The notes beneath the pieces were generated by a model that worked only from the letters and a program-made list of their open reading frames with translations, did no database searches and was not told where the DNA came from. This document shows positions 2,555 to 55,039 of a stretch of 64,000 nucleotides of DNA, piece by piece. Source of the DNA: Boudabousia tangfeifanii (GTDB lineage: Bacteria; Actinomycetota; Actinomycetes; Actinomycetales; Actinomycetaceae). The translations under genes and the position numbers were made by a program. How positions within the stretch are numbered: the first letter of the stretch is position 1; the number at the start of each line of letters is the position of its first letter. The DNA lies in assembly GCF_001856685.1 (NCBI RefSeq), contig NZ_CP017812.1, forward strand, positions 2,108,001-2,172,000, written 5' to 3'.

Positions 2555-3181
2555 TTAGGGGTTAACAAACTCCGGGTTGGCAGCCGCTTTGGCACCTTGC
2601 GCAAATTCATCCGCAGTTTTGAGCAAAGCTTCAGAACGGCGGGTTACTAGTGCAGCCAACTCATCGGCATCACTTTCAATCCATTGGGCATCAGCATTAC
2701 CAGCCGCAAAGATTCGCAACAAAATAGCGCTATTTTTCAATAATCCAGGCAGGTTTTCGCAGCCTTCACCCGCAAACAATTCGGCCAGAGTGGCAAAGTG
2801 TCTAGTCAAGAAGTTACTAGGAACGTCTAGGCCCTTTGCTTGCGCGATTTTCACCCCAGCTTCATAACGCTCAGTTAGCACTTTTCGATCGCGCGAATAC
2901 CACTCATTTAGAAGGTAGAGGCGCCAAAGCTGCCCGGGCAAAGTCAAATAACCGGAGCGGGACCAGAGGGCAGCAGCAAAATCAACGCCCTGAGTTTTAA
3001 TCACATCTACCAAGTCGGCAACTTGCTCTTGTCCGAACTCTTGATCGGACCAGCCAAGCAAGGCTCGTGCAGCAGTTTGTGCCGTAGTGGTGGTGATTGC
3101 CGGATCTTCATCACCAGGAATCTGTTCGGCCACTTCCGGATCCAACATGGCGGGTCGACGTGGACGGCGATTCTCAGTCAT
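2555..3181 (-). CDS. Unknown soluble protein, 208 aa
   Basis: I do not recognise the family. The protein has a basic, Pro/Arg-rich start (MTENRRPRRPAML), then a mostly helical body with no signal peptide or membrane segment. Notable stretches are GWSDQEFGQEQVADLVDVI, a hydrophobic aromatic segment (SGYLTLPGQLWRLYLLNEWY) and a central LTRHFATLAELF. The spacing of residues suggests an all-helical fold. It lies divergently from tRNA-Lys and upstream of ppk1 on the same strand, separated by about 280 bases with its own ppk1 promoter, so co-transcription is uncertain. The frame is well supported by length, codon use and a plausible start. Confidence 0.75.
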   Translation of the reverse strand: MTENRRPRRPAMLDPEVAEQIPGDEDPAITTTTAQTAARALLGWSDQEFGQEQVADLVDVIKTQGVDFAAALWSRSGYLTLPGQLWRLYLLNEWYSRDRKVLTERYEAGVKIAQAKGLDVPSNFLTRHFATLAELFAGEGCENLPGLLKNSAILLRIFAAGNADAQWIESDADELAALVTRRSEALLKTADEFAQGAKAAANPEFVNP

Positions 3182-45958: not shown

Positions 45959-46312
45959 ATGAGTTCTTTTGATCGTACTGTTGAGCTTGATGTTCCAGGG
46001 ATGACCTGCAACAACTGTGTTTCTCACGTCCGCACCGAGTTGGAAGCTTTGCCTGAAGTTAACAATGTGGAAGTTATTTTGCGTTCCGAGGGCGTTTCTT
46101 TGGTGACCGTGCACATTAACGCCCCAATTTCTGATGATGCTTTGCGCGCCGCTGTGGATGAGGCCGGCTATGACGTCAACGAGATCCGTCGTGACGATGT
46201 GGCTGGGATTGCTCCTGAAGGTCGCGAAACCATGCGTTTGTCTGATGTGAACGCCACTGGTGAAAAGGGTTCGGGCGAGGGCGGCTGTGGCTGCGGTTGC
46301 GGCTGCAAGTAA
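45959..46312 (+). CDS. copZ: Copper chaperone-like HMA protein with Cys-rich tail
   Basis: A 117-residue protein whose first 70 residues form a heavy-metal-associated domain with the Cu(I) site VPGMTCNNCVSHV (C17, C20). After a linker of about 30 residues comes GGCGCGCGCK, a tail with four alternating Cys that could bind further Cu(I). CopZ proteins hand copper to CopA. The gene is 132 bases upstream of a copper ATPase that lacks its own N-terminal HMA domain, which makes this a probable partner in trans. A terminator follows, so the two genes are separate units. Confidence 0.88.
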   Translation: MSSFDRTVELDVPGMTCNNCVSHVRTELEALPEVNNVEVILRSEGVSLVTVHINAPISDDALRAAVDEAGYDVNEIRRDDVAGIAPEGRETMRLSDVNATGEKGSGEGGCGCGCGCK

Positions 46313-46353: not shown

Positions 46354-46395
46354 AAACTGCAGCTATCACTCGTGGTGGCTGCAGTTTCTTTATTC
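46354..46395 (+). terminator. Terminator of the copper chaperone gene
   Basis: AAACTGCAGC (46354-46363) pairs with GCTGCAGTTT (46378-46387) around 14 bases, followed by CTTTATTCC. Ten-bp stem, moderate T content. Confidence 0.65.
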
Positions 46396-46446: not shown

Positions 46447-48999
46447 ATGGCTAAAGCAGCTGAGTCTTTTCAGGCTCGCATTATTGTGGCCCTTGTTTTC
46501 GGCATTCCGGTTTCTTTGATTTCGATGATTCCGGCTCTGCAATTTTCGCACTGGCAGTGGGTGGTAGCTTTCTTGTCGCTACCGGTGGTGGTGTGGGCGG
46601 CAGCTCCCTTCCATCTGGGTGCGGCTAAAGCGCTTCGTTATGGTTCTTTCACCATGGACACGCTGGTGTCGATGGGCGTGCTGGCAGCTTCGCTTTGGTC
46701 TTGGTTCGTGCTGTTGTTCGGCAATGACTCTCAGCATGTTTATTTTGATGGGGCGACCATGGTGGTGGCCTTCTTGTTGATTGGTCGTCTGGCGGAGGCC
46801 CGCGCCAAGAGCACTGCGGGTTCGGCTTTGCGCGCGCTGCTCGATATGGGTGCGAAGCAGGCTACTTTGCTGACCGAGGACGCTTCAGGCCAGCAGGTCG
46901 AAACGGTAATTCCTGCCGCCGACTTGAAGGTGGGCGATGTTTTTAAGGTTCGTCCAGGTGAAAAGTTGGCCACTGATGGTCAGATCCTTGCCGGCTATTC
47001 TTCGATTGATGAGTCTTTGCTGACGGGTGAGCCGGTCCCGGTGGAGGTTGCTCCGGGCGACCAGGTTACGGGTGCCACCATTAATGGCGAAGGTGTTTTG
47101 CAGGTGCGGGCCACCCGAGTGGGTGCGGATACGACTTTGGCTCAGATTGGTCAGATGGTGGCGAAAGCGCAGGCTGGTAAAGCACCGGTGCAGCGTTTGG
47201 CCGACAAGGTCGCATCCATTTTTGTTCCGGCGGTTCTAACTTTGAGTGTTTTGACTTTTGCCGGCTGGATGATTGCTGGTTATGGTTCAAATGTGGCTTT
47301 TACTGCCGCTGTTTCGGTGCTAGTGGTGGCTTGCCCTTGCGCGTTGGGTTTGGCTACTCCGATGGCACTTTTGGTGGGTTCGTCACGTGCTGCCCAGATG
47401 GGAATTTTGCTGAAGGGCCCGCAGGTGCTAGAAACTACCCGCCAGATTGACACCATGTTGCTAGATAAAACTGGCACTATCACGGTTGGTAAGTTGTCGG
47501 TAATGGCTGAGGGGATGCGTTTGGACCCGGCCTCGGGTCTAGATGAGAAGCAGGCTTGGTGTTTGCTAGCTAGCGCGGAAAGTAGCTCTGAGCATCCGGT
47601 GGCGAAAGCCGTGGTAGCTGCCGCTCAGGCTGATGGCGTCGAAGTTAGCACTCCGAAGCGTTTTTGGAACGTGCCGGGTCGCGGCGTGATTGCTTTGCAC
47701 CCAAATGATCAGCAACAGGTAGTGATTGTGGGTCGTCCTCAGTGGGTGGCACAGTTGGCTGGGACTGATCACGAAACTGGTCAGGAACTGGTTTTGCCAG
47801 AGTTTGAACAGTTAACCCTTTCGCAGGGCGCCACTTTATTGCGTGGTGCGACTGCCACTTTAACCCCCGATTTTTGGTCTGCCGAGGGCGGGGCAACCCA
47901 GGCAGCCAACGGCGATGCTGCTCAGTCCTTAACGGCTGTTTCAAAATCTTCGACCCTTTCGGTCGACGATGGCCAGCAGACTGCCGAGGAGCTTTCTGCA
48001 GAAACTGCCCAGCAGCTGGCTCCGCCGGCAAAGCTGGCAGTACAGCTAGCCATTAGTGGCATGAGTTGTGCGGCTTGTGTGCGCCGAGTGGAACGACGGT
48101 TGGGCAAACTGGATGGGGTTAGCGCGGAAGTTAACTTGGCAACCGAATCGGCTATGATCGAGGCCCCTGAGGGCACTGATCCGCAGTCGCTGGTGGAGGC
48201 AGTGAAGCAGGCCGGTTATGACGCGACTTTGACTTCTGTTTCCGACTCATCCACTGCGGCGTCCTCGGATAGCCAGACTAAGGCAGATAGCGTCAACTTG
48301 GACAACTCCCCTATGGGTGAGTCTGTGACCGGCACGGAGGATTCTCAAGCTACTGGTGCCAGCGAGTCCGATTTGGCGACTAACTTGCCGACCCGTTCTG
48401 CGGACCAGGTCTTGACGGCTTTGAGCCAGGTTACCGAATTCGCTTCGGTGGCCTTGTCCGATACGGTGAAGCCTTCAAGTGCAAAGGCGATTGCTGAGCT
48501 GAAGGATCAGGGCATTACCCCGGTTTTGCTCACTGGCGACAACTTGCAGGCCGCCCAACATGTGGCTGCCCAAGTGGGCATCGACCAGGTTATCGCTGGA
48601 GTGCTTCCAGCCCAAAAGCAGGAGGAAGTTAATAAGCTCCAGCAGGCAGGCAAGACCGTGGCGATGGTCGGCGATGGCGTAAACGATGCGGCAGCTCTGG
48701 CCCAGGCGGGCACCCAGGGTCTTGGTTTTGCCATGGGCTCGGGCACCGACGTGGCGATCGAAGCTGCAGACATTACCTTGGTGCGTTCAGATTTATTGGC
48801 CGCCCCGGCTGCAATTCGAGTTTCTCGCGCTACCTTGCGCAACATTAAGGAAAATCTGGCGTGGGCTTTCGGTTATAACCTGATCGCTTTGCCACTGGCA
48901 GTCAGCGGTTTAATGAACCCAATGATTGCGGGGGCTTGCATGGCCTTCTCGTCAGTGGCGGTAGTTTTGAACGCACTACGATTGCGTCGAGTTAGTTAG
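46447..48999 (+). CDS. copA: Copper P1B-type ATPase with HMA domain inside the nucleotide-binding region
   Basis: A Cu(I)-exporting ATPase of 850 residues started at the ATG at 46447 (a TTG precedes it). All P1B-1 marks are present: eight helices, CPC at 296-298, DKTGT with D340, HP at 383-384, TGDN at 696-699, [10 protein letters not shown] at 742-751, and the late YN and MAFSS pairs. There is no N-terminal HMA domain. Instead HMA motif [18 protein letters not shown] (C541, C544; domain about 533-600) lies between HP and TGDN, flanked by Ser/Thr/Ala-rich linkers of about 50-70 residues. The insert sits just before the strand [11 protein letters not shown]. The chaperone-like gene upstream probably delivers copper. 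Confidence 0.93.
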
Positions 49000-51400: not shown

Positions 51401-54175
51401 ATGAGCCGAGCCGATTCTCCCGTGGAGCAACCCGAGTTGTTGCCCCTTTTGGCTCCATCCAACCCTGTGTTGGTGGTAGACGCTCCCCTGTCCCCGGTTC
51501 ATCGTCCCGATAATCTTTGGTGGTCGGCACTTGATGTGGTGGGGATTTTTTTGGTTTTATGGGCGGCTCGTTGGGGTGATGGGTCGGCCGCTACGATGGC
51601 TCGCGAAGCCTTCTTTGCCTCTCTGCCAGATAGTAGTCCTAAGCTAGCTTTTCCTTCAGTCCTCATCGAGACTCTGGTATTCCTCTTGGTCACCTTGTTG
51701 CTGATGGTGCCTTTGGTTTGGCGTCGTCGTTGGTCTTTGCTGGCCGAGGGCGCTGCCGCCCTCGTTTTTGGCATTGTGCTGGTGGGGGTGTTTACTGAAC
51801 TTTTGCCGTTGATTGCTCCGGCTTCTTGGTCTGCGTTGGTATTTACCCGTTTGGGTGAGGCGCAAGTTCCGGTGAACTTTGTGGTGGCGGCTCTGGTGGC
51901 TTTTTTGGCGGCCTTAAGTGGTCGTATTTCGGGTCGTCTTGAGCGCTGGTCTTGGCTCGGTTTAGCCGTGGCTGGTTTGTTCCCCGTTTTAAGTGGCGTC
52001 ATGGGCTTCCCGGGAGCCATTTTGTCTTTCGTTTTGGGACATCTTTCGGCACGGTTGACTCGCTTTTTGGTGGGCGCCGATACCGCTCAAGCTTCTGGTG
52101 TCGACTTGGTGGAGGCAATTGTCCGTGCCGGCATTAATCCCGTGCGCGTCGTGCGCTCTGCCCCTAATTTTTCTCCTGAGAAAGAGCACTCTTTCGCTCC
52201 CAAGGTCAACTTGGTAAACTACTCTGGCAGTTCCAGAGTGGTTAGAAATTGGTTGAAAACTTGGAAATGCCCGTGGGGTCGTAAACGATTGAGCGCCCCT
52301 TTTGATTGGGAAGTTTATTTGGTTACCACCCCAGCCCAATCGCACGAGTCCTCCCTAGCTAAAATGATTTCTCATCAAGCAGAGACTTTGCTTGCTGACC
52401 CTGATTTCCTAGATCCTAGGCAGATTCTGCGTCCCACTTTGGTGCGGGTCAATCCTGATTTGAAAGAAGTTGCGAACCCCACTCACCTGTTACAGTTGGC
52501 CGCCCAAATGCCGCCCGTTTCTTTAACTGGCCGCACTGGCCGTAACTATTTTGTTTGGGATGCTTCTGGCCGCACTTATTCTTTGACCGTGCTCGATCCT
52601 TTGCAGCGGCTTTGGACTTTGCTGTTGGATTTTTTGAAAGATTTGCGTTTCCGCGGTTTGGATCGTGCTTCGGCAACTTCGGTACGCGGTGCTCTTGAGC
52701 GTGGAGCTTTAGCGCAAATGTTGGCAGCTAAAGCTCAGGTCGGCATGTGCGAGTTCACGGCTATCAGTCAAACCGAGGACTCTTTGGTGGTGCTTTCGCA
52801 AGTGACTGAGTCTTTGCGTCCTTGGTCGCAGATCCCTTCCGAAGATTTTTCTGATGCCATGTTGTTGGATGCGTGGGAGCAGCTTTTGCGAGCTCACCGG
52901 GTGGGTTTGGCCCATCACGGGATTGATGCGCAGGCTTTGGCTTTTAACCCATCAGGTCAGGCTCGCTTGGGGGTTTGGCGCGATGCCGAGACTTCCGCCA
53001 ATGAGCTTGGCCAGTTGGTCGATCTGGCGCAAATGTTGACTTTGCAGGCTTTGAAAGTTGGCGCCCCTCGCGCGGTGAGTCTTGCCGAGTCCGTCCTCGG
53101 CAAGCAACTTTTGACTCGGGTGGAGAAGGTGTTGCAGCCGGTGGCACTTTCGAAGTCGTTGCGAGCCGAAGCGAAGGCGGCGGGGATTTTGCCGCAGCTA
53201 CAGAAGTGTTTATCTTCCGAGGACGAGTTGGACGATACGGCACAGGTCGAGTTGCGTTCTTACTCCCCCAAGACGGTACTTTCTACCATTTTGGCGCTAG
53301 TGGTAGTGGTGGTCGTTTTTGGCTCTCTCAGTTTCGACCAAGTCGCGGCGGCCATGACCGGGGCGAATCCTTGGTGGCTGTTAGCAGCTTTTGGTTTCTC
53401 CTTACTAATGTTTATTGGCTCGGCCATCCCCTTGCAAGCTTTTGTTCCCGAAAAACTTGGTTTAGGTGAGAGCACTTTGGTGCAGGTGGCCGGTTCCGTG
53501 GTGGCCTTGGTAGCACCTGCGGGGATTGGTCCGGCGGCACTGAATCTTCGTTTCTTGTCGCGTAAAAAGGTGCCAACTCGGGTGGCTGTGGCGACGGTTG
53601 CCCTGATTCAGGTGGAGCAGTTCGTGGTGACGATTGTGCTCCTAGTTTTGGTGACTTTGTTGACGGGTCAGCAGGGTGCTCTGGTGATGCCTTCGGCGAA
53701 TGTGCTGTGGGGTGGCGGCCTGATCCTGATTGCGCTTTTGGGTCTGACCTTTATTGGTCCGGTGCGAGGCTGGTTGTGGGAAAAAATTAAGCCAACTTGG
53801 GAGCAGATTTGGCCGCGTCTTCTTTGGTTGGGTTCTCATCCTGGCCGGGTAGCTTACGGGGTTTTCGGTTCAGTGTTGATTACCGTGGCAGCGGTAGCTT
53901 CTTTCGGTTCGGCTTTGGCTGCTTTTGGCTACAGTTTGGATCCGGCATTGTTGGCTATCACTTATTTGGTTTCTAATTCGGCGGGCGCTTTGATTCCCAC
54001 TCCTGGTGGGGTTGGCCCGGTGGAAGCAGCTTTGAGTTTAGGTTTGCGTGCTGCGGGGATTCCGGCCTCGGTGGCAGTTTCTACCGCCTTGTTGTTCCGT
54101 CTGGTAACTTTCTGGGCACGTTTACCTTTGGGTTGGCTGGCTCTTAAATTCTTACAGAAACGAGGCACTTTATGA
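51401..54175 (+). CDS. LPG-synthase-type flippase with pseudokinase-like middle domain
   Basis: A 924-residue membrane protein. Residues 40-210 hold about six helices. Residues 210-620 are soluble; RGALERGALAQMLAAKAQVGMCEF, LVVLSQVTESLRPW, DAWEQLLRAHRVGLAHHGI and ELGQLVDLAQML resemble a kinase fold in which the HxD and DFG residues are not recognisable. Residues 620-924 carry the PF03706-type flippase region (FVPEKLGLGESTLVQVAGSVVALVAPAGIGPAALNLRFL; TPGGVGPVEAALSLGLRAAGI). Similar proteins are common in actinobacteria as putative flippases. It overlaps crcB by 4 bases (ATGA). Confidence 0.85.
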   Translation: MSRADSPVEQPELLPLLAPSNPVLVVDAPLSPVHRPDNLWWSALDVVGIFLVLWAARWGDGSAATMAREAFFASLPDSSPKLAFPSVLIETLVFLLVTLLLMVPLVWRRRWSLLAEGAAALVFGIVLVGVFTELLPLIAPASWSALVFTRLGEAQVPVNFVVAALVAFLAALSGRISGRLERWSWLGLAVAGLFPVLSGVMGFPGAILSFVLGHLSARLTRFLVGADTAQASGVDLVEAIVRAGINPVRVVRSAPNFSPEKEHSFAPKVNLVNYSGSSRVVRNWLKTWKCPWGRKRLSAPFDWEVYLVTTPAQSHESSLAKMISHQAETLLADPDFLDPRQILRPTLVRVNPDLKEVANPTHLLQLAAQMPPVSLTGRTGRNYFVWDASGRTYSLTVLDPLQRLWTLLLDFLKDLRFRGLDRASATSVRGALERGALAQMLAAKAQVGMCEFTAISQTEDSLVVLSQVTESLRPWSQIPSEDFSDAMLLDAWEQLLRAHRVGLAHHGIDAQALAFNPSGQARLGVWRDAETSANELGQLVDLAQMLTLQALKVGAPRAVSLAESVLGKQLLTRVEKVLQPVALSKSLRAEAKAAGILPQLQKCLSSEDELDDTAQVELRSYSPKTVLSTILALVVVVVVFGSLSFDQVAAAMTGANPWWLLAAFGFSLLMFIGSAIPLQAFVPEKLGLGESTLVQVAGSVVALVAPAGIGPAALNLRFLSRKKVPTRVAVATVALIQVEQFVVTIVLLVLVTLLTGQQGALVMPSANVLWGGGLILIALLGLTFIGPVRGWLWEKIKPTWEQIWPRLLWLGSHPGRVAYGVFGSVLITVAAVASFGSALAAFGYSLDPALLAITYLVSNSAGALIPTPGGVGPVEAALSLGLRAAGIPASVAVSTALLFRLVTFWARLPLGWLALKFLQKRGTL

Positions 54176-54657
54176 GTTCGATAGATCCGACTGCTAAGCC
54201 TGCCCCGCAGGCCGAGGGCGGTGGGGTAACTCCCGAGCGAGCTAGGTGGGCTGCTTCGGCTAGCTGGCCAGATTGGTTGCTAATTTTCCTTGGTGGTTTC
54301 TTAGGTTCAACGTTGCGTTACTTGACGGATTTGGTGTCAATTTCTTGGGCTCCGGCTTTGGGCATTAGCGTGCCATCTACCTGGATGTTGTTTCTGGTGA
54401 ATGTGATTGGCGCTTTCATTTTGGGTTGGCTTTCGGGCCGAGAAGTAAGTAGTTCGGCGAAGTTGTTGTTTGGCACGGGCATGTGCGGGGCGTTTACCAC
54501 TTATGGTTCTTTGATGTTGCTTCCGGTCAATAGTTATTTGGTGGGCTGGGAAGTAATGGCTTGGTCCCTGCTGTGGGCGGCGATTATTTTGGCTTTGGGC
54601 TTGGCCGCGGCGGCGGCTGGTTGGAAGCTGGGAGCCAGGAGGACCAAGCATGCTTAA
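54172..54657 (+). CDS. crcB: Fluoride channel CrcB/Fluc, first subunit
   Basis: A 161-residue four-helix fluoride channel. It has an N-terminal extension of about 35 residues (DPTAKPAPQAEGGGVTPERARWAA) before FLGGFLGSTLRYLTD, then NVIGAFILGWL and GMCGAFTTYGSLMLLP, the residues lining the pore (N, F, T). Paired crcB genes encode the two subunits of a dual-topology heterodimer in many Gram-positives. It is coupled to the flippase gene and overlaps the second crcB by 8 bases. Confidence 0.93.
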   Translation: MSSIDPTAKPAPQAEGGGVTPERARWAASASWPDWLLIFLGGFLGSTLRYLTDLVSISWAPALGISVPSTWMLFLVNVIGAFILGWLSGREVSSSAKLLFGTGMCGAFTTYGSLMLLPVNSYLVGWEVMAWSLLWAAIILALGLAAAAAGWKLGARRTKHA

Positions 54658-55039
54658 GGTTTTGTTGATTACTGCGATCTTTGGTGGTTTTGGGGCGATT
54701 GCTCGTCATTATCATTCTGCTGGCATTGAGCAGCGTGCTCGTCAGCGCAATCAGTTGCTCGGCCCGGTGGGTCATGGCACGCTTGGGGTCAATCTGATTG
54801 GCTCATTTTTAGCTGGGTTGGTTTTAGGATTTCCGTTGATGCCGATGACGATAAAGCTAATGTTGCTTTCGTTCCTGTCTGGTTATACGACTTTTTCCAC
54901 CGCCATGGTGGATGTGGTGAAGGCTTGGTCGATGGGTGAACGTTCGCTCGCTTTGCGCTACGTTTATTTGATGCCTCTGCTTTGTTTGTTGGCGGTGGCT
55001 TTTGGGTTCTTCCTGCCAATAATTTTCCTTGCTTTTTAA
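54650..55039 (+). CDS. crcB: Fluoride channel CrcB/Fluc, second subunit
   Basis: A 129-residue CrcB with the full set of motifs: GGFGAIARHY, NLIGSFLAGLVLG, GYTTFSTAMVDVV and four helices. No soluble extension. The pair probably forms one heterodimeric fluoride exporter. I saw no fluoride riboswitch in front of the pair, and there is no room for one within the overlapping genes. Confidence 0.94.
   Translation: MLKVLLITAIFGGFGAIARHYHSAGIEQRARQRNQLLGPVGHGTLGVNLIGSFLAGLVLGFPLMPMTIKLMLLSFLSGYTTFSTAMVDVVKAWSMGERSLALRYVYLMPLLCLLAVAFGFFLPIIFLAF

Follow-up and report, generated by a model that had tools for sequence, protein, structure and literature searches.

The metal-binding domains (MBDs) of P1B-1 copper pumps are described as terminal or typically N-terminal in the accessible portions of three papers (PMC10973460, PMC7558416, PMC8475189), and the numbering scheme proposed for them in 2024 provides, in the part of the source available, N-terminal and C-terminal places (PMC10973460). 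A terminal MBD is usual for this type but does not define it, the number being 'zero in certain prokaryotes' according to a passage of the same source (PMC10973460). The role of these domains, whether delivery, sensing or autoinhibition, is openly disputed, as stated in an excerpt of a further paper (PMC11970713). Here we describe a 64,000-nucleotide stretch of the genome of Boudabousia tangfeifanii (contig NZ_CP017812.1, positions 2,108,001 to 2,172,000 of the forward strand; hereafter the window), in which a copA-like gene (46447..48999, + strand, as are all features of the window below) encodes a predicted P1B-1 type copper ATPase of 850 residues with its HMA domain inside the nucleotide-binding domain (N-domain). 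The first-pass annotation of this DNA knew of no description of the arrangement, and in searches of the open-access full-text literature, subscription papers being outside this scope, we found no description of a copper pump with an internal HMA. The observation is sound and more general than the reading of a single sequence suggested; the mechanism proposed with it, gating of ATP binding by copper, is one of several.

Translation of 46447-48999 gave 850 residues without interruption, followed by a stop, and the product matched the P1B-1 model TIGR01511 (copper-translocating P-type ATPase) with 519.9 bits for a cut-off of 397. We observed a complete P-type catalytic set, namely TGE of the actuator domain (A-domain; residues 193-195, 47023..47031), the phosphorylation motif DKTGT (340-344, 47464..47478), HP of the N-domain (383-384, 47593..47598), GxG (411-413), TGDN (696-699, 48532..48543) and GDGVND (742-747, 48670..48687). 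The P1B-1 membrane motifs are CPC in M4, YN in M5 and MxxSS in M6, and all were found, as C296-P-C298 (47332..47340, the predicted transmembrane copper site), Y810-N811 and M832-A-F-S-S836. The membrane part comprises eight helices, of which MA and MB precede the core, and the protein matches Pfam PF00702 (Hydrolase) in two stretches, the best of which (652-755) lies downstream of the HMA. Judged by its sequence, it is a P1B-1 (CopA-type) copper-export ATPase, and the first-pass annotation was right both in calling the catalytic motifs intact and in the positions that it gave for HP, TGDN and the GMSCAAC of the HMA.

The sole HMA of this protein (Pfam PF00403, one stretch at residues 534-592, E 1.3e-12, 48.3 bits for a cut-off of 24.8) lies within the N-domain and not at a terminus. 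The whole domain spans residues 529-600 (48031..48246) and contains GMSCAAC at 538-544, of which CAAC (48067..48078; C541 and C544) is the predicted copper-binding CxxC. Between the last strands of the N-domain the chain runs from the first strand of a split hairpin (463-472, 47833..47862, placed by the model, the alignment being loose here) through a Ser/Thr/Ala-rich, largely disordered linker 1 (473-528, 47863..48030), the HMA and a largely disordered linker 2 (601-658, 48247..48420) to the second strand (659-671, 48421..48459, from model and alignment), which leads back to the phosphorylation domain (P-domain). An N-terminal HMA has no room, because a membrane helix begins at the protein start (hydrophobic part from about residue 12; first helix of the model at 2-27). 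Pfam and translation agree with what had been noticed at first, that the N-terminus lacks an HMA and a complete one sits between HP and TGDN.

In the AlphaFold model the P/N fold is intact, with 264 residues superposed on Archaeoglobus fulgidus CopA (3a1c) at 1.9 Å, and the HMA is folded, its strands and helices in the expected order. Both linkers are mostly disordered, with a predicted local distance difference test score (pLDDT) below 50 at 481-517 and 604-643. Because this disorder covers most of their length, the HMA looks tethered in the model, not packed at one fixed place. The first-pass placement of the HMA inside the N-domain thus stands, but the direct contact with the N-domain expected along with it is not evident in this model; the structure prediction that it had called for yielded a folded HMA and no fixed packing site.

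We observed the same architecture in many relatives. The CopA was read in 90 of the 213 genomes of the family (code f1, taken as Actinomycetaceae; match in 212), these being listed matches crossing the insert together with representatives from further genera, and thus not a random sample. The HMA was internal in 59 of them and N-terminal in 30, one had an assembly gap and none had both; G142, G155, G172 and G173, from the largest internal genus code, stand outside this classification. The internal type occurred in 9 of 36 genus codes (g1, g16, g19, g20, g23, g24, g27, g30 and g35), and named cases are Boudabousia liubingyangii, Schaalia HMT-172, Actinomyces marseillensis, Scrofimicrobium R131 and an uncultured Mobiluncus. 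In one genome with the window's genus code the CopA core hardly differs from that of B. liubingyangii. Among the best 120 of 7999 scored homologues, 118 had one internal HMA, one (P0004) had two in tandem inside and one, from Georgenia, had two N-terminal. Eighty loci from named genomes gave 77 N-terminal cases (Actinomyces denticolens included) and 3 internal, all Actinomycetaceae, which were dropped as copies of three family rows. Another homologue search, started from a protein of the Mobiluncus clade, listed 119 new proteins, of which 31 were internal and 88 N-terminal. No row read carries both placements, and the either/or rule is not universal, since at least one family genome (G124) has a pump without any HMA (L198). 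In the order (297 genomes, 24 in the family), no match beyond the family crosses the insert among the roughly 150 matches listed by this heuristic search; other phyla were not searched for this domain order.

Chance is excluded because the HMA score is high and the same architecture recurs in many genomes. The first-pass annotation had named an assembly error, or homologues with only an N-terminal HMA and no insert, as what would overturn it. The search for homologues that it recommended found the same domain order in 59 of the 90 family genomes, and relatives of both kinds exist. An assembly or fusion artefact, for which the probability is next to nil, is ruled out because 59 genomes, spread over nine genus codes, and 118 of the 120 listed protein clusters share this order, and by a genome consisting of one contig (2.2 Mb, 99.99% complete).

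Two further observations concern single cases. The tandem HMAs of P0004 (residues ~508-665), both in the N-domain hairpin, group together (96/87) as an internal duplication. On contig C8 of G142 (213379-215581; genome 84% complete) the CopA pieces are out of order, the hairpin and HMA piece, with a stop inside, preceding the N-terminal and then the C-terminal part, by assembly fault or rearrangement.

The insertion point is shared by alignment: 63 internal rows, near-copies among them, all carry the HMA in one turn of the hairpin, with a median of 36 residues in linker 1 (23-84) and 39 in linker 2 (26-88), lengths that are approximate for the few rows aligning loosely at the first strand, such as the window protein and L102. 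In 31 rows with an N-terminal HMA (N-type) the median length of this turn is 6 residues, four rows having 11, 13, 39 and 63. All 64 internal HMAs retain the CxxC, but they were found with a profile that was built from CxxC domains and could hide some without. DKTG, TGD, GDGxND, YN, MxxSS and TGE are present at all 59 internal loci, HP and CPC at 58 each, and the residue preceding HP varies. One internal-HMA pump, L144 (G126), on a long branch, has CAC for CPC and HG for HP, which may reflect a changed metal or a decaying gene.

These linkers bear on copper-gated ATP binding in cis, in which the apo or loaded HMA would pack on the N-domain and alter nucleotide affinity or the swing of the N-domain. 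Such gating is favoured by the HMA being covalently part of the N-domain, and by an inhibitory nanobody which mimics the tail of CopA from Legionella pneumophila (LpCopA) and which, according to an excerpt of its description, binds the N-domain and acts through it (PMC11970713). However, linkers that are long and largely disordered on both sides, with lengths from 23 to 88, do not suggest a fixed interface, and we consider this mechanism unlikely.

Core trees were computed with the HMA and the N-terminal parts cut out. In a quick tree, 60 of the 63 internal rows formed a single clade (Shimodaira-Hasegawa-like approximate likelihood ratio test, SH-aLRT, 87); a careful tree of 77 rows, from which 22 near-copies and most far outgroups were left out, needed four placement changes, two of them forced by starred branches. 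By the approximately unbiased (AU) test a single clade of all 41 internal rows was rejected (log-likelihood difference 209, p 1.4e-56), whereas without L137, L151 and L154 a single clade of 38 was not (difference 11.8, p 0.28); a separate origin of L137, on a long branch, is uncertain. The arrangement thus appears to be a trait found in family lineages that do not form one clade.

The strongest case is the Mobiluncus clade (g23), which holds both placements, the HMA being internal in G129 and G130 and N-terminal in G131 and G132. When this clade was enlarged to 13 rows (6 internal, 7 N-terminal; core support 100/100), the HMA tree joined the same 13 rows (97/90), so one HMA lineage has switched position within a single gene. 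In the smaller set the N-type proteins of G131 and G132 branch before the internal pair (97/92). Because one clade is rejected and the Mobiluncus clade combines both placements with one HMA lineage, the placement has changed at least twice, by moves in or by moves in and back; the rejection cannot distinguish a pair of inward moves from a single one followed by a return. Some N-type CopA of this clade (L196 of G131, P0150 with 56 member sequences, and P0152) have almost no N-domain: the span from DKTG to GDG is 112 residues in P0150 and 149 in P0152 vs about 200 usually, and the HP and GxG region is gone. G131 has no second copper pump among the matches listed, which raises the question whether such a pump is dead or binds ATP otherwise.

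Another N-type protein of the clade, L160 (G132), carries in that same hairpin 63 residues that contain no HMA and are largely made of a dispersed genomic repeat, which is inserted in frame in two linkers of this one pump (1352-1459 and 2960-3097). Its N-terminal and hairpin linkers share 103 of 119 aligned columns, a likeness that none of 300 codon shuffles equalled. BLAST with this stretch reported 50 matches in its own genome and 0 in three sister genomes, and a 21-base pattern (at most one mismatch) has 31 copies in that genome and 0 in four others. The likeness, being a dispersed repeat, was rejected as a relic of an HMA move; the repeat shows that the loop is permissive and offers a possible recombination route, but it is no evidence of the move. 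N-terminal tails and linkers were compared 42 times across 14 of the 59 internal loci, with no clear trace of a move. The best were linker 1 against linker 2 in L113 (28 vs 25, above all 200 shuffles) and one in L092, equalled by 1 of 200 shuffles, and in L152 and L148 the linker comparison detected no similarity.

Selection was assessed from the ratio of nonsynonymous to synonymous substitution rates (dN/dS). For internal pairs (n = 30, 75-97% core identity, from 31 of the 59 internal loci) it was 0.10 in the HMA, 0.13 in the core and 0.47 in the linkers, and for N-type pairs (n = 24) 0.31, 0.27 and 0.63; these ratios are rough, since internal dS is near saturation (~1.2-1.35) and the pairs are non-independent. 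The contrast between HMA and linkers is plain, and the internal HMA is under purifying selection, evolving as slowly as the core. This slow evolution argues against a neutral relocation, in which the hairpin tolerates insertions and the HMA does hardly more than buffer copper and its position is inconsequential, as do the CxxC in every internal domain read, the single placement per protein and the use of the same turn in lineages outside one clade. Neutrality would find support in the N-type proteins L152 and L160, with 39 and 63 HMA-free residues in that turn, as expected of a permissive loop; on balance we hold it to be improbable.

The sequences themselves show how the domains are ordered, that the insertion point is a common one, that the two placements exclude each other in the rows read, that selection is purifying and that the placement changed at least twice. 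As to function, we think it somewhat probable, by analogy, that this HMA, from its new tether on the N-domain, continues to act as a copper sensor that holds the pump back. The MBD of LpCopA has been proposed to be a copper sensor, and its tail to be inhibitory when copper is low, through interference at the interface of the A- and N-domains, according to the accessible text (PMC11970713). The single HMA, N-terminal in most relatives, is here a module placed within one exposed beta-hairpin turn and held by two long disordered linkers; tethered in this way to the N-domain, it would stay near the A/N-domain interface in every state. A domain needing only that interface could be tethered N-terminally or on the N-domain, in keeping with the either/or pattern. 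From its place on the N-domain, the HMA could not act by pulling mechanically on the first membrane helix.

Several points weigh against this reading. The regulatory role is carried over from LpCopA, whose MBD has a different fold according to the excerpt (PMC11970713), and the AlphaFold model shows no docking site for the HMA. The careful tree leaves the fork of the main internal group open, with ten N-type rows inside (one clade p 0.28), and in the larger Mobiluncus set two internal proteins branch first, which makes a return to the N-terminus as possible as repeated moves in. We place regulation first, then neutrality and direct gating. A more specific version, in which an N-domain-embedded copper sensor couples Cu(I) occupancy directly to ATP binding or N-domain motion, evolution having repeatedly shifted a terminal HMA into the same hairpin, is a doubtful though conceivable one; if true, it would define a class of P1B ATPase with internal, not terminal, regulation.

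Upstream of copA lies a separate CopZ-like gene with one HMA (45959..46312, 44.1 bits) and a Cys/Gly-rich tail, coding for a probable copper chaperone; the tail, GGCGCGCGCK, could bind further copper. The HMA hits of the genome are two, that of CopA and that of this gene. A terminator-like hairpin (46354..46387) stands between the two genes, which is weak evidence alone as 3 such sites occur in 801 bases with 1.5 expected. A frameshifted N-terminal HMA was ruled out, the CopZ-like gene being in another frame and 134 bases upstream, with that hairpin between. In the HMA tree (one CopZ, 67 columns) the window CopZ has a very long branch of its own, and the internal HMAs fall among those of CopA; this does not favour the capture of a CopZ into the pump, and by this tree the internal HMA appears to belong with the usual CopA HMAs.

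In the family, a small open reading frame with an HMA accompanies copA at 56 of the 59 loci with an internal HMA and at 28 of the 30 N-type ones. Copper delivery, in which the HMA would take Cu(I) from a chaperone and carry it on flexible arms to the membrane entry site, is consistent with this neighbour and with the CxxC in 64 of 64 internal domains. The tip of the N-domain hairpin is far from the membrane in P-type structures. By this inferred geometry a delivering HMA would have to span the distance between the distal end of the N-domain and the membrane, which the shortest linkers (23 and 26 residues) could do only if stretched almost fully. Delivery has been proposed for one MBD of eukaryotic pumps in a portion of one source (PMC10973460), but adding the MBD core to MBD-less LpCopA left activity unchanged in the available text of another (PMC11970713), and we regard delivery as quite unlikely, behind a copper-sensing HMA that restrains the pump. 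Elsewhere in the window, 51401-54175 encodes a 924-residue membrane protein with the transmembrane region of an LPG (lysylphosphatidylglycerol) synthase in its C-terminal part, and two adjacent, overlapping CrcB genes (54172-54657 and 54650-55039) follow, which we take to be a probable two-gene fluoride channel.

Closely related pumps, some carrying this HMA N-terminally and others within the N-domain, amount to a natural domain swap and offer a test of the role of the domain. Provided that the internal-HMA pumps work, they cannot use any mechanism in which the HMA must pull on the first membrane helix, and mechanisms based on proximity to the A- and N-domains predict that both placements behave alike. 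Compared with known systems, the P1B-1 pump CopA of A. fulgidus (7r0g, 3a1c, 3j09) has its aligned HMA at the N-terminus (residues 6-67 in 3j09), whereas that of the window protein is inside the N-domain and its N-terminus is bare. Georgenia CopA (P0005), 53% identical in the best segment and the only ordinary architecture among those best 120 homologues, has two N-terminal HMAs and a six-residue turn where the window protein has HMA and linkers. Human and frog ATP7B and plant HMA4 are P1B-1 pumps with ferredoxin-like MBDs like that of the window protein, ATP7B chains scoring highest among solved relatives of the HMA alone, but theirs are in the N-terminal chain. LpCopA is likewise of the P1B-1 type with a proposed copper-sensing MBD, which in the portion of the source available is terminal and of another fold than the HMA of the window protein (PMC11970713).
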